A stretch of DNA of 64,000 bases from Tridacna crocea. Its lineage: Eukaryota > Mollusca > Bivalvia > Cardiida > Cardiidae. A program made the translations under genes and the position numbers. Under the pieces are notes generated by a model, which ran no database searches, was not told the DNA's origin, and saw only the letters and a list, made by a program, of their open reading frames with translations. Location of the stretch: contig OX031063.1 of the NCBI GenBank assembly GCA_943736015.1, forward strand, positions 20,505,501-20,569,500, given 5' to 3'. The number at the start of each line of letters is the position of its first letter. The stretch's first letter is position 1. Below are positions 813 through 62,640 of the stretch, piece by piece.

Positions 813-2936
813 CTCGTCCATAATGGAACATTTATTGAAGACAAATGTGGTAAAAGGATAAAACACATTGTGGCAACTTGGGATTGTACCGCATTTTCTT
901 TTCCCACGTTTTCAAACATAGGCAAATCTTTAAAATCGTTTCAGTCGCACTGAATTTATGTAATATTTTTAATTTTAACAAGTCTCTTTTTCTCTTTTGA
1001 TTAACATTTTAAATGAAGGTACAGGGGCATAACTAGACGAAGATGAAATAAACACAAAACTAATACCAAAGGTATTATCCGAGGCCCGGAGTGCTTAGAG
1101 TGCCGGGAGGGGTTCAAAGTAGGTCTGGAGGGCCTCACCATGACTTTTATTATTTTTAAGACAATTTATTGGCCTCTGGTGATGTGTTGTAGCACAAATG
1201 GTTCTCTTTTCTTTCATGAAGTCGCATGAGGCCATTTCCGGTACCCAGGTTCGGTCAGATGATGTGGTCATACATGCTGTGAAGGACTTTTTGAACTGTC
1301 AAAGAACAGACTTCTTTAGAAGTGGTATTGAGGCCCTTATACATCGTTATTACAAAAAAAAACTGGTAGAAACCGGAGGGTATTGTGTCGAAAAATGATG
1401 CCAATATGTACAAACCCCTTACATATGTGGCTCATAACTTATTAATCAGCTCTCGTAAAACATTGTGTCAAACCAAAAACTTGTTAGAATGCAGATGATG
1501 GTACTAATGGCTTATAAAGAAACAAGTAACAGTGGATATGCATGTTTCTGCAATATTTTTAATAAATTTATACAAAGTATAACTGTATAGACTTTTGATA
1601 TATAATATATGACATAATCAAGTGAAACTTACAGAGTAGTGTTTCTAATACATAACGAAAAAATATCAAACAAAATGAACCAAAGTTGCCTTTATCTGAA
1701 GACACAAGTCTCTTTAAACTCTTTTACCAGAATAACCAGAATTTTATCCTTTACCAGAATATTTTCTTCTCTTTAAAAGACTATTACGACCGTCGAGCTT
1801 TATTTGTCGCCAGAAAGTTCTTGCCATTTGGACAACTCCAAAATTTTGTTGTTTGGTAAAGAGCTGATACACTTCAAAAAGCGTATTTCTAATAGTGAAT
1901 TTATAGACCTATGATTCAATGAAAATTTTCCGCAAACAACTGAATACAATGTAAGACAAGAGCCAGAGATTGGCTGCAGTTGCTGTTTCTGTAAAAATTC
2001 TTAGTCAAAAAAGAGAATGAAATGTTCCCAAATATTTCTAGTCGTGCACTATGAAAACAAGGTTTCATGCATTAGCACAATGTATTGACCACAGCCAGGC
2101 TGACATTTGTCGAAACTCTTTGCTATTTGTCAATTTTCTGCATTTAAAAGGATCATTCTATGTGATGTTTCAGTCAATTGTTTTGTCAGACAAAGTTAAA
2201 TCTACGGTTCTATATTTATCTGTTGCTTGGTACAATGCCTCACACAGATGCATTAAATCCCCTTTTGTGAGAGGTGGCCCATTTTGTGGTTTACCTGAGC
2301 TTCTTGTATGGGGTACCCTCTAAACAGTTGTCAAAGAGACTGACTTGGAAATGAAATATCTTTATATCAGTTGTGACAGATACATGTATTAGAATCTTAT
2401 CAAATTTTTCCACAATGCCAATGTAAACGACAAAAGGGTTATGAAAATATCTCGATGTTTTCTTTGAAAAACGCAAAACTAAACATAATAATAATAATAA
2501 ATTTTGATATACATGTATAAACCATGGGAAAAAGGGGCTTAATGCATCTGTGGAAAATATCAACTTGGGTCAGCCTGTGCAGTCTGTGAAGGCTGACTTG
2601 GGCAGAACCTTTTCACTACTGGTCAACTTTTGTATGTCCAAGGATCATTCTAACTGAACATTAAGTCATAAAGTGTTAAAAAAAGTGGTTTTTATGGATC
2701 CATAAGTGTGTAATGGCTAGATTGGTACCACGCATCACAGAGATCAATAAAGCCGCCTTTTCCCAGAAATATGGCTCAAAAATATTGTGTTCTGTGTATT
2801 TCTGTGCTTACGAATGTAATAAATTACAATATCTGATAACAATGAAACAAAATATGAACAATCTCTTACGTAATGCTTATATATCACAGACGGAATTAGG
2901 TCATGGAATACATACTAGATAATTCATCCCATTCCC

Positions 2937-3124
2937 ACACAATGACGACTTTTGATGACCCTTGGAAAGAAGCCTTTTGAAAACATTGTGGAAAAGGAGA
3001 AAATACTGGTAACCAGCATTTTCTCCATTGTTAAACAATTACACCATTTGAGCCACATTGAAATTTGTCATCTGCAATGCTTTCAATTTGTACAGGGCTA
3101 AAATGTTGTCGACTGTTAAAGGGA
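2937..3124 (-). mobile_element. TH-A MITE
   Basis: R' flank (ATGACGACTTTTGATGACCC), hairpin centred at 3010, L' flank ending in GTTAAAGGG. One of the two copies whose centres bound a 419-bp difference between units 1 and 2. Confidence 0.75.
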
Positions 3125-3305
3125 TAACTGTTTCATTTACAGACCATTTTTAGATATATCATTAACCAATATAACATGAAAAGAAAGAGAAATGTCTCAT
3201 TAACTTTCTCCCACCATAACGAGTCTTTTTTCTAAGGAGGCAGAAAACATTTTGGTAATAGAAGCATAATTATGTTGATTGCAGGGCCTCAACTTTTTAT
3301 AATAC

Positions 3306-3514
3306 GGCAAAACTTACGTCATGTCCAAATTGAAAGCATTTGTAAGTTGACGCATAAATAGTGGCTGAAATGGTGATATTTGTCTATAAAAGAGTAGAAA
3401 ACAATGTAGGAAAAGGGGGAAATGCTGGTTACTAGCATTCTCACCTTTTCCCATGTTTTCATAAGCCTTCTTCCTCAGCATTATCAAAGCTCTGGATTGT
3501 GTGGTAAAGGGTTC
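3306..3514 (+). mobile_element. TH-A MITE
   Basis: L flank from GTCCAAATTGAAAGCATT, hairpin centred at 3430, R flank ending GGATTGTGTGGTAAAGGG. Confidence 0.75.
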
Positions 3515-3870
3515 AAAAGATATATTTGTAGAAGAGCCAGTCTACCCCAAACCATGTACAAATAACTTTTCTTATTATCACTGCTGTACAAGTTGTTTCA
3601 AAATATTGTGGGAAAAGAACCAATAGCTTTCAACAAACCATTTCTCCATTTCTAACATTATTTTCCATTCAATCCGGGGGAAAATGTTCCTTTACCGTCA
3701 GGTATTTTTTTTTTGTATCTAAACAGTAACGGGCTAATTTGTAGAAAATGTGAGTAACACAGACATCAATACGAGCAACACGTTTCGGAACAGACACAGG
3801 AAATGACATCAAATGAAACATTTCAGGACAGGAAATATTCAGATAATGATTTTTATCACATAAAATACTA

Positions 3871-4095
3871 TTAACTCTTTACCAAACTACAAAATTTTAG
3901 AATTGCCTAAATTGAAAGTATCTGCCGATAATGGATGATAAATCAAATATGACTCTACACAAATTTGTTTGTTGAAGAGTAGAAAATGTTGTGGGAAAAG
4001 GTGAAAAAGGCATCATTGAGCCACATTGAAATTGTTGTCTGGATATGCTTTCAATTTGGACAGGTCCAAAATTTTGTCGTGTGGTAAAGGGGTAA
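3871..4095. mobile_element. TH-A MITE, L/L' chimera
   Basis: Begins TTAACTCTTTACCAAAC and ends CAAAATTTTGTCGTGTGG plus TAAAGGGG, so both flanks are L type. Paralogous to 416-559 but retains part of the hairpin (GTTGTGGGAAAAGG). Confidence 0.7.
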
Positions 4096-4318
4096 CCCTT
4101 TAACTGAGACGATTGATTCCCGCCTTTTATAGGCCCTGAGAAAGAAGCCTTTTGGAAGTTTTGTAGGTAAAGGAGAAAATGCTGGTAACAATCATTTCCT
4201 CTATTTTCCCACCATGTTTTCTACCTTTCCCATAACAAATGTCACATTTATTTTGACGCCTGCATATACTTAAAATTGGAACAGTGTAAAATTTTGCGTT
4301 TTGGTAGAGTTTGAACGT
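4094..4318 (-). mobile_element. TH-A MITE, diverged
   Basis: R' flank (GGCCCTGAGAAAGAAGCC), hairpin remnant GGAGAAAATGCTGG, and a degenerate L' flank. Paralogue of 598-812. Confidence 0.65.
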
Positions 4319-4874
4319 TAATTGAGGACAAATGTGGAAAAAGGATATAACATATTGGGGAAAAATGAAGAAAATACTATCTTCAAAAGGACTTTCCCTT
4401 CAGGTCATTCAAACTTGGGATTGTATGGCATTTTCTTTTCTCACGTTTTCAAACATAGGCAAATCTTTAGAATCCTTTCAGTTGCACTGAATTTATGTAA
4501 TACTTTTGCTTTTGACAAGTCTCTTTTTCTCTTTTGATTAACATTTTAAATGAAGGGACAGGGGCATAACTAGCCAAAGATTAAATAAATGCAAAACTAA
4601 TATCAAAGGTATTATCCGAGGCGCGGAGTGCTTGGAGTATCGGGAGAGGGATTTTCATAGTGGGTCTAGAGGGCTTCACCATGATTTCACATTATTTTGG
4701 CCTCTGGTGCTGTGTTACGTCACAAATGGCTACCTTTTCTTTCAGACTTCTTTAAAAGTGAATTGAGGCCCTTAAACATCGTTGTCAAAAATCTGTAGAA
4801 ACCAGAGGGGATTGTGTCGAAAAATAATGCAATATCTCCAAACCCCTTACATATGTGGCTCATTACTCATTAAT

Positions 4875-5080
4875 CCTTAAGCTGCTAAGCGCGACTCACT
4901 GATCTTTTGCGGACAGCGTAAATTCAGATCAGACTGCACAAAACGCGCAGCCTGATCTTGGATCTACGCTATCCGATGAGGAGAGATACCATGCCCAAAA
5001 ACATAACTTTGAAATAGCAATATTTGGGTTTTTACAGTAGACTTGAAAATGTCATTTTAGTTATTTAGCAGGATAAAGAA
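4875..5080 (+). mobile_element. 206-bp hairpin MITE (family TH-C), insertion defined by an empty site
   Basis: Inserted in unit 2 of the segmental duplication between two TAAT copies (4871-4874 and 5081-5084). Unit 1 has the intact site with one TAAT at 1442-1445. The ends are an imperfect inverted repeat (CCTTAAGCTGCTAAG versus CTTTATCCTGCTAAA). Inside is a hairpin around 4910-4975 (CAGATCAGACTGCAC / GCAGCCTGATCTTGGATC). Diverged relatives are at 14318-14400, 14895-14985, 18650-18715, 51880-51960 and 54395-54490. Confidence 0.75.
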
Positions 5081-6584
5081 TAATCAGCTGTCGTACAATG
5101 TTGTATCGAACCCATTTTTTTTCAAAATGCAGATGATGATACTACTGGCTTATAAAGGAACAAGTAACAGTTGATATGCATGTTTCTGCAATATTTTTAA
5201 TAAATTTATACAAAGTATAACTCTATAGACTTTTGATATATAATATATGACATAATCAAGTGAAACTTACAGAGTAGCGTTTCTAATACATAACGAAAAA
5301 TTATCAAACAAAATGAACCAAAGATGCCTTTATCTGAAGACAACACATTAATTTTTTTAAAGTCCACAAGTCCCTTTAAACTTTTTCACCAGAATAACCA
5401 GAATTTTCTCCTTTTCAAGAATATTTTCTTCTCTTTAAAAGACTATTACGACCGTCGAGCTTTATTTGTCGCCAAAAAGTTCTTGCCACTTGGACAACTC
5501 CAAAATTTTGTTGTTTGGTAAAGAGCTGATACACTTCAAAAAGCGTATTTCTAATAGTGAATTTATAGACCTATGATTCAATGAAAATTTTCCGCAAACA
5601 ACTGAATACAATGTAAGACAAGAGCCAGAGATTGGCTGCAGTTGCTGTTTCTGTAAAAATTCTTAATAAATAAAGAGAATGAAATGTTCCCAAATATTTC
5701 TAGTCATGCTCTATGAAAAAAAGGTTTCATGCATATGCAGAACGTATCGACCACAGCCAGGCTGATATTTGTCGAAACTCTTTGCTATTTGCCAATTTTC
5801 TGCATTTAAAAGGATTATTCTATGTGATGTTTCAGTCAATTGTTTTGTCAAAGTTCAATTCATGGATCCATATTTATGTGTTGCTTGGTATAATGCCTCA
5901 CACAGATGCATTAAATCCCCTTTTGTGAGAGATGGCCCATTTTGTGGTTTACCTGAGCTTCTTGTTTGGGCTTCCCACTAAACAGTTTTCAAAGAGACTA
6001 ACTTGGAAATAAAATATCTTTATATCAATGGTGACAGATACATGTATTAGAATCATATCAACCTTTTCCAACAATGTCAGTGAAGACGACAAAAGGATTA
6101 TGATATAAAAATCTATCTTGATGTTTTCTTTGAAAACAGCCGAACTAAACATTACAAGATATTTTGGTGTACATGTATATAAACCATGCACTGTGAAAAG
6201 GGGGCTTAATGCATCTGTGGAAAGTATCAACTCTGTGCAGGCTGACTTGGGCAGAACTTTTTCGCTTTTGATCAAAGTTCTGTAGGTCAAAGGATCAGTC
6301 TTACTCAATGTTAAGTCATCAGTGGTTAAAACAAGTGGTTTTTATGGATCCATAAGTGTGTAATGGCTAGATTGGTACCACGCATCACAGAGATCCATAA
6401 AGCCGCCTTTTCCCAGAAATATGGCTCAAAAATATTGTGTTCTGTGTATTTCTGTACTTACGAATGTAATAAATTACAATATCTGATAACAATGAAACAA
6501 AATATGAACAATCTCTTACGTAATGCTTATATATCACAGTCTGAATTAGGTCATGGAATACATACTAGATAATTTATCCCTTTC

Positions 6585-6738
6585 CTACACAATGACGACT
6601 TTTGATGACCCTTGGAAAGAAGCCTTTTGAAAACATTGAGGAAAAGGAGAAAATGCTGGTAACAAGCATTTTCACCTTTTTCCATAAGCCTTATTCCTCA
6701 GGTTCTTAAAGCTCTGGATTGTGTGGTAAAAGGTTAAA
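6585..6738. mobile_element. TH-A MITE, R'/R chimera at a duplication junction
   Basis: Left flank GACCCTTGGAAAGAAGCC and right flank AAGCCTTATTCCTCAGG are the same R flank in inverted orientation around a hairpin centred at 6660. Confidence 0.75.
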
Positions 6739-7264
6739 AAGATAAATTTATAGAAGAGCCGATCTTCCTAAACCATGTACAAATAACTTTTCTTCTTATG
6801 TCCCTGCTGTACAAAATGTTCCAAAGCATTGTAGATATAGAATCAATAGCTTGCAACAACCACTTCTCCATTTCTAACATTACTTTCCATTCAATCCAGG
6901 GTAAAGTTCCTTCACCGTCAAATGCAAGTAACACAGAAATCAATACGAGTAACAAATTTTGAAACTGACATAAAAAATGACATCAAGTAAAACATTTTAG
7001 GGATGGGAAATGTTCAGGTAGTAATTTTTCATCAGATAAAGTACTATTAATTCTTCACCAAAGCACAAAATTTTAGAATTGTCTAAATTGAAAGCATCAG
7101 CCGATGACAAATCAATTATGACTCAACACTTGACATTTGTTTGTGGAAGAGTAGGAAATGTTGTGGGAAAAGGAGAAAATGTTGGTTACCAGCATTTTCT
7201 CCTTTTCCCACAATATTTTCAAAAGCCTTCTTTGTCAATGTTGTTGAAACTTGGAATTGTTTAA
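6681..7264. repeat. Tandem segmental duplication, unit 3 (partial)
   Basis: Third, truncated copy. 6681-7110 follows 1-490 of unit 1 (CTCTGGATTGTGTGGTAAAA, the AACCATGTACAAATAACTTT block and the ATGACATCAAGT block). Similarity stops inside a TH-A element at 7047-7264, so the duplication boundary falls in a MITE. Confidence 0.75.
7047..7264 (+). mobile_element. TH-A MITE, canonical L/R
   Basis: TTAATTCTTCACCAAAG start, hairpin GGAGAAAATGTTGGTTACC, R flank to TTTAATTA. At the same place in units 1 and 2 the element is L/L'. Confidence 0.75.
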
Positions 7265-7728
7265 TTAGAAGTTGAAAGCTGCCTACAATAGTTACTTTGC
7301 AGAGTTGATCAAGATTAGACTGAAATCTTTCTTGGATCTACATTCTGACATTGTAAGTAATTTATGCCAAACTTTTCAAAGATATATAGGATCTACATAT
7401 ATATTTCTTAATTGTCTTTACTCAGAATGTTTCTTTCGATTTATATGGCTATTCAATTTACAGGTAAAATAACAAAAATAATCTCCCTTTTCCCATGTTT
7501 GATTTCACTGCTATTTTCAAATGCTTTTCATTTGAACCACTGCATGTGCATTGATCAAATTTCTAGACAACCTGAGGAAAACTAGAAAATGACCGAAGAC
7601 GTTACTCATAACATTCAATGAACTACATATACCTCTTTACTCATGATGAAATGTGTATCTAATTTTATGCCAATCCTTTGAACAGTTGATCCGTAGTTAT
7701 CTTTGCTTCTAGTATGACATTTTCTCTT

Positions 7729-8312: not shown

Positions 8313-62640
<54,328 letters not shown>

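Follow-up and report, generated by a model that had tools for sequence, protein, structure and literature searches.

A hybrid copy of the TH-A element at positions 6575–6740 of the window (the whole 64-kb stretch of DNA that we analyzed) was probably left when the central cores of two TH-A elements in opposite orientation underwent homologous exchange, deleting the inner arm of each element and the spacer between them (L'-spacer-L) from the third unit of a tandem array. The hybrid, which we call J2, has the configuration R'/R. The palindromic core reads alike on both strands, so that opposite-facing TH-A copies share a direct repeat, namely their cores; only the sequence beyond the core forms inverted repeats in such a pair.

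TH-A is a MITE of about 220–230 bp: it is short, has terminal inverted repeats, and occurs in many copies. A profile HMM prepared from five full copies recovered dozens more, and a consensus was built on 35 copies. In this consensus, the inverted termini are TTAACTCTTTACCAAAC and TTAACCCTTTACCACAC, with TTAA flanking each end, and the middle of the element is occupied by a self-complementary core of 67 bp, perfect in the consensus, in which the palindrome arms match over 33 bases on either side of an odd center. Beyond the core, TH-A is asymmetric, with a left arm (L) of about 105 bp and a right arm (R) of about 55 bp. TTAA itself is conserved at both ends and the one base outside it holds only 0.01 and 0.09 bits, a pattern that fits a putative TTAA target-site duplication. 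Kolobok elements share TTAA yet have the termini 5'-RR...YY-3', according to the available text of PMC9587614; inside TTAA, the TH-A consensus has the termini CT...GG, unlike Kolobok. The combination of a TTAA target with ends other than RR...YY agrees with piggyBac, and from TTAA and the terminal bases we classified TH-A as a putative piggyBac-like MITE. As in piggyBac-type MITEs, TTAA is present at both ends and the terminal bases are of the form YY...RR; in contrast to them, TH-A has a long central palindrome, which to our knowledge is not a defining trait of piggyBac.

We called 91 TH-A cores in the window, weak ones included, 40 of them with both arms, and the copies in its first 12 kb are about 60–90% alike in an ungapped comparison. 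In an arbitrary sample of twenty 10-kb stretches (200 kb), we counted 93 two-sided cores, or about one TH-A per 2 kb; if this sample is typical, extrapolation gives two-sided cores in the order of half a million genome-wide. A full copy at 55333–55582 showed 39 other genome matches at 97–99% identity among the 40 candidates scored, and appears to be a member of a recently active subfamily.

The unrearranged junction of unit 2 (J1) consists of element P1 (R'L', minus strand, 2928–3128; core center 3011; HMM match positions 5–230), with arms R' at 2928–2978 and L' at 3033–3125, a spacer of 159 bp (3129–3287), and element P2 (LR, plus strand, 3288–3513; core center 3430; HMM match positions 5–232), with arms L at 3291–3395 and R at 3463–3513. 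J2 has a single core centered at 6661, flanked by R' (6576–6628) and R (6686–6736). We compared J2 with P1 and P2 by separate local alignments and called the arms with arm HMMs. We observed that J2 follows P1 to the left of the core and P2 to the right. The offset between the junctions is 3650 on the left (2941 to 6591 and 3010 to 6660) and 3231 on the right (3435 to 6666 and 3441 to 6672), a drop of 419 that reproduces by alignment the shift described in the first-pass annotation; the single R'/R chimera that it had set opposite an R'L ... LR pair is J2, both arms of which were seen by the HMMs. The core centers that it had proposed (3010/3011, about 3430, and 6660) were near, the center being odd and located at 3011, 3430, and 6661. 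Identity to J1 is 94% in the left flank of J2 and 81% in the right, and the outer flanks of J2 are collinear with those of J1 and of a third junction, J0, described below. Counting 33 bases to either side of each of the 91 called core centers, 9.2% of the window is covered, and a rough estimate of the chance that unrelated breakpoints would fall in two cores in matching register is of the order of 1e-4 (0.092 × 91/64000).

The direction of the change is settled by sequence outside the window; the window by itself shows two states, with the direction resting on parsimony. We searched an assembly of 1,048,827,098 bases (1.05 Gb), in which the window occupies C8:20505501–20569500, and read 30 kb upstream of the window in addition to its 64 kb. 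In the whole-assembly search, the query 2900–3520 gave a second full-length match directly upstream of the window, 88% identical over 621 bases. This match belongs to a further unit, which runs from about −2670 to 505 on the numbering of the window, aligns with the window from near position 571 onward, and has its own R'L'-spacer-LR junction, J0. The two paralogous units recognized earlier are both real, but the array consists of three, an additional unrearranged one lying upstream. The middle part of the spacer (3135–3265) has exactly two matches in the assembly, J1 itself and J0 (92%), both unrearranged. Since the spacer is kept in two of the three units, both of them unrearranged, unit 3 must be the one that lost the spacer and the inner arms. 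The inner ends of P1 and P2 in J1 reach the element termini (arm-HMM positions 2–94 and 2–105), and these complete ends indicate that the unrearranged state comprises two complete elements, with no later insertion. A deletion by exchange between repeats (NAHR or single-strand annealing, SSA) calls for unrearranged paralogues with collinear flanks, which are provided by J0 and J1, as well as for a single remaining hybrid copy and homology at each breakpoint, both of which are found in J2. These sequence comparisons indicate that J2 is derived by deletion; the earlier proposal of a deletion between inverted MITE copies is borne out by two unrearranged paralogues and by the absence of the spacer from unit 3.

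The location of the switch between the two parental sequences was less well predicted. The first-pass annotation had taken the equality of 419 bp with the center-to-center distance as a sign that the palindromes were resolved at the hairpin tips. Every breakpoint in the ungapped aligned core yields 419, so this value is no independent evidence for the tip; moreover, the centers in J0 are 444 bp apart versus 419 in J1, which is net 25 bases shorter, mainly through two gaps (10 and 15 bases) immediately to the right of its first-core center. We fitted a one-switch model to positions −20 to +22, with the unrearranged copies as parents and under nine settings (three divergences by three parent choices); for columns −20 to −15 of J0, six in all, the J1 bases were used on account of a one-base deletion. 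Across the nine settings, the posterior was 0.43–0.92 for a switch at +10 to +13, 0.02–0.32 left of −6, and up to 0.07 right of +13. With J0 as the sole parent, the value for +10 to +13 fell to 0.43–0.75 and that left of −6 rose to 0.14–0.32. Within 3 bp of the center, the posterior was 0.02–0.10, compared with 0.18 from the uniform prior (8 of 44 positions).

At individual markers, J2 is P2-like at −6, P1-like at 0 and +10, and matches neither parent at +3. At −22, beside a one-base length difference, it resembles the P2 of J1, the rest of the left flank being P1-like. Markers −13 and −11 single out only the P2 of J1, as the P2 of J0 shares the P1 bases there, and at +13 and most informative sites beyond it J2 is P2-like. 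Because the markers at −22, −6, and +3 conflict, the exact base of the switch cannot be named, and alignment at base level placed it in the core. From the bases shared with J0 and J1 and the posterior in the nine settings, the interval most likely to hold the switch is 6641–6674, its best part being 6671–6674 (+10 to +13). The switch was most probably located in the right stem of the core, 10–13 bp right of the center, which is away from the hairpin loop and still inside the palindromic core.

According to the mechanism that we propose, the core of R'L' on the left and the core of LR on the right would have paired in unit 3 as direct repeats and would have been joined by homologous exchange, a step for which we infer one of three routes: breakage and single-strand annealing, an unequal crossover of sister chromatids, or slippage during replication. 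What remains would be a single hybrid core, with R' to its left and R to its right, and L', the spacer, and L would be lost. Annealing-type deletions leave one hybrid repeat, with loss of the intervening DNA. The initiating break may have been supplied by extrusion of a hairpin or cruciform. The simplest reading is that homologous exchange anywhere in the core explains J2 without hairpin resolution. The cores of P1 and P2 agree at 33 of 41 positions in J0 and at 31 of 41 in J1; this identity of 76–80% over 41 bp is low for an ordinary crossover, although it is a present-day figure, and the cores may have been more or less alike when the exchange occurred. The weak points of the exchange model are the assumption of a single switch and the parental markers, which are not cleanly split.

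An alternative in which both palindromes were extruded as hairpins or cruciforms, and their tips were cut or bypassed and then joined, places the breakpoint at the center by its very mechanism. The cores can indeed fold as single-strand DNA hairpins (z of −4.0 for P1, −6.6 for P2, −4.5 for the hybrid, and −12.0 for a well-kept copy), hairpin-capped breaks arise at palindromes in yeast and human cells, as stated in the accessible part of PMC7999016, and later repair might have shifted the markers. Nevertheless, the low posterior within 3 bp of the center, below its prior, together with the fact that the supporting arithmetic is equally true for any breakpoint in the core, makes resolution at the tips improbable. 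We also consider it unlikely that J2 resulted from exchange or conversion between units, its left half coming from the R' core of one unit and its right half from the core with which another unit begins (window position 1 is an example). To the right of J2, the sequence is 90.3% identical to unit 1 and 85.0% to unit 2, the former pairing having 39 informative sites in its favor, versus 24 and 16; however, this closeness is equally expected if unit 3 inherited a unit-1-like copy before the deletion, and an exchange of whole units needs an extra step for the homology stop at 7179.

Repeats of this kind can mislead assemblers, and the assembly is our single source for this case, so we evaluated the possibility that two cores were joined and the spacer skipped during assembly. 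The divergence of the J2 flanks from those of J1 argues against a collapsed J1 copy or a simple misjoin, and there is no N across the 94 kb formed by the upstream 30 kb and the window, making such an artifact very unlikely. Finally, R'/R could be ancestral, with L'-spacer-L gained by the other units, or a mobile R'/R element could have inserted here. R'/R forms are present at other loci; in contrast, a gain would require a precise insertion completing two full elements, and the collinearity of the outer flanks across all three units speaks against insertion or gain. Of 3058 candidates for the hybrid at 6661, 40 were scored, and among these J2 itself was the only one with an unbroken match over the full 165 bases, which gives no indication of a mobile R'/R subfamily as its source. 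Both versions of this explanation are extremely improbable. Core-to-core homologous exchange is the reading that we favor for J2. A broader idea, that any two TH-A copies can recombine through their self-complementary cores irrespective of orientation, is one that we advance only tentatively and regard as doubtful.

The architecture of the array points to a possible role for core exchange in its formation as well. The three units meet at L/L' hybrids (about 505 and 4007) whose cores are mostly gone. In the hybrid between units 2 and 3 (3868–4095), L spans 3873–3980 and L' spans 4012–4092 by HMM, most of the core is lost, and the alignment ends at 4007/7179. In its paralogue between units 1 and 2 (417–555), with L at 417–516 and L' at 509–555, the center is deleted further, leaving a 79-base gap relative to 3960–4038. 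The two hybrids lost differing amounts of their centers, as if long L/L' palindromes had been trimmed further after duplication. The homology between units 2 and 3 ends at 7179, inside the core of an LR element (7044–7265, plus strand) and eight bases short of its center at 7187. It is from the L/L' boundaries together with this stop inside the LR core that a role of core exchange in building the array may be proposed. The 3' edge, with its stop at 7179, fits a clean exchange with the LR core at 7187. A clean exchange between the 5'-edge core and that LR core found no support, as the 5'-edge L' is just 71% like the L' at 4012–4095 and ranks 146 of 201 L arms (query included).

The units differ by about 10–15% where well aligned and are mosaic. 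The S1 copies show identities of 86.7% (a-b), 90.3% (a-c), and 85.0% (b-c); the S2 copies are 86.1% identical overall, reaching 97% in the best 250-column stretch and 42% in one badly aligned stretch. By eye, about 200 bp at approximately 4880–5080 in unit 3 have no counterpart at the corresponding place of unit 2, near 1440, and may be a different repeat that was inserted. On the minus strand, the window also contains a 399-aa open frame at 8313–9512. It gave no Pfam family at E 0.001, but its residues 245–398 match part of talin as known from solved structures (best E 9.4e-6), and it may be the final exon of a gene on that strand. Other long minus-strand frames lie at 19469–20791 and 29945–30433.

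Hybrids are not confined to this array. A looser count with the arm HMMs gave 4 hybrid calls among 91 two-armed cores in the sample, 3 among 38 in the window, and none among 7 in the upstream 30 kb. Two of these calls, L006:9436 and window position 42510, were rejected, since a shortened R arm adjoins the core there and is followed by the L' of another element. From the letters, 3 of the 4 sample calls look real: L012:8892 (R'/R), and L010:1646 and L023:6354 (both L/L'). The element at L010:1646 has a differing core loop (..AGAAATTACTTGTAACAAGTAATTTCTCC..), and the L arm may also be present in another, symmetric subfamily. Under a stricter rule, in which calls are made from the bases adjoining the core and cores below 25 bits are dropped (L023:6354 included), 93 of 163 sample cores were called on both sides, 92 of them canonical and 1 R'/R; R'/R accounted for 2 of 31 two-sided cores in the window and 0 of 4 in the upstream 30 kb. 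This rule, which undercounts L/L', called no L/L' hybrid in the sample, the window, or the upstream 30 kb, and 70 of 163 sample, 31 of 62 window, and 8 of 12 upstream cores were without a call on one or both sides. Hybrids thus recur, at roughly 1–3% of cores in the arbitrary sample. Four sample stretches hold 5–7 cores each with a single arm type throughout (L007 and L018, R'/- only; L017 and L020, -/R only), and may be tandem or satellite-like arrays that arose from one half of TH-A.

The second R'/R hybrid in the window lies at 55640–55808 (center 55726). When 40 of 5807 candidates were scored against it, six other loci (L025–L030), all further R'/R copies, matched at least 168 of 177 bases, and a seventh matched bases 1–152. 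The 25-base flanks of L025–L030, L012, 55726, and 6661 showed no likeness by eye. Identity between the arms inside one R'/R copy is 69–87% (the value of 87 coming from 15 bases only), and the median between-locus arm identities in the R'/R set are 82 for left-left, 79 for right-right, and 76 for left-right; the left-left excess may reflect the choice of R'/R loci with one query. As the first-pass annotation had anticipated, further R'/R copies exist in the genome; an unrearranged paralogue was seen for neither 55726 nor L012:8892 among the 40 candidates scored for each, those places being filled by nearby TH-A copies.

Inverted repeats are usually not expected to delete the DNA between them, and J2 provides a polarized case in which two inverted mobile elements did so. 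In the titles and abstract openings of the open-licence literature that we searched, we found no report of inverted MITEs deleting DNA by way of their central palindromes. If cores often exchange, the counts of R'/R and L/L' would directly measure recombination between short diverged repeats; since hybrids are rare in our samples, the effect may be modest. One close parallel is Galileo, of the P superfamily, whose chimeric and "two recombinant TIR" copies in Drosophila mojavensis are ascribed to ectopic recombination or conversion in the available portion of PMC3573991. As in J2, the halves of one such copy come from different elements; Galileo, however, has long terminal inverted repeats, whereas the exchange in J2 took place in the short central palindrome of MITEs of about 220–230 bp, at a site with unrearranged paralogues. 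Annealing between inverted repeats in yeast gives inverted dimers and fold-backs, and the sections available of PMC6103520 report these products rather than a deletion of the J2 type. J2 resembles NAHR and single-strand annealing in that one hybrid repeat stays and the DNA between is lost, and differs from these processes at dispersed repeats in that direct register is confined to the self-complementary core of nominally inverted repeats. Palindromic AT-rich repeats are long palindromes that break near their centers and rearrange between chromosomes. Rearrangements mediated by palindromes, as outlined in the accessible part of PMC7999016 (see also PMC4255720), likewise join sequences at palindromes; in J2, by contrast, the switch is most likely off-center and the event is local. 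In relation to these systems, J2 adds a new and well-polarized case to the repeat-mediated deletions already known, and its general interest is modest.
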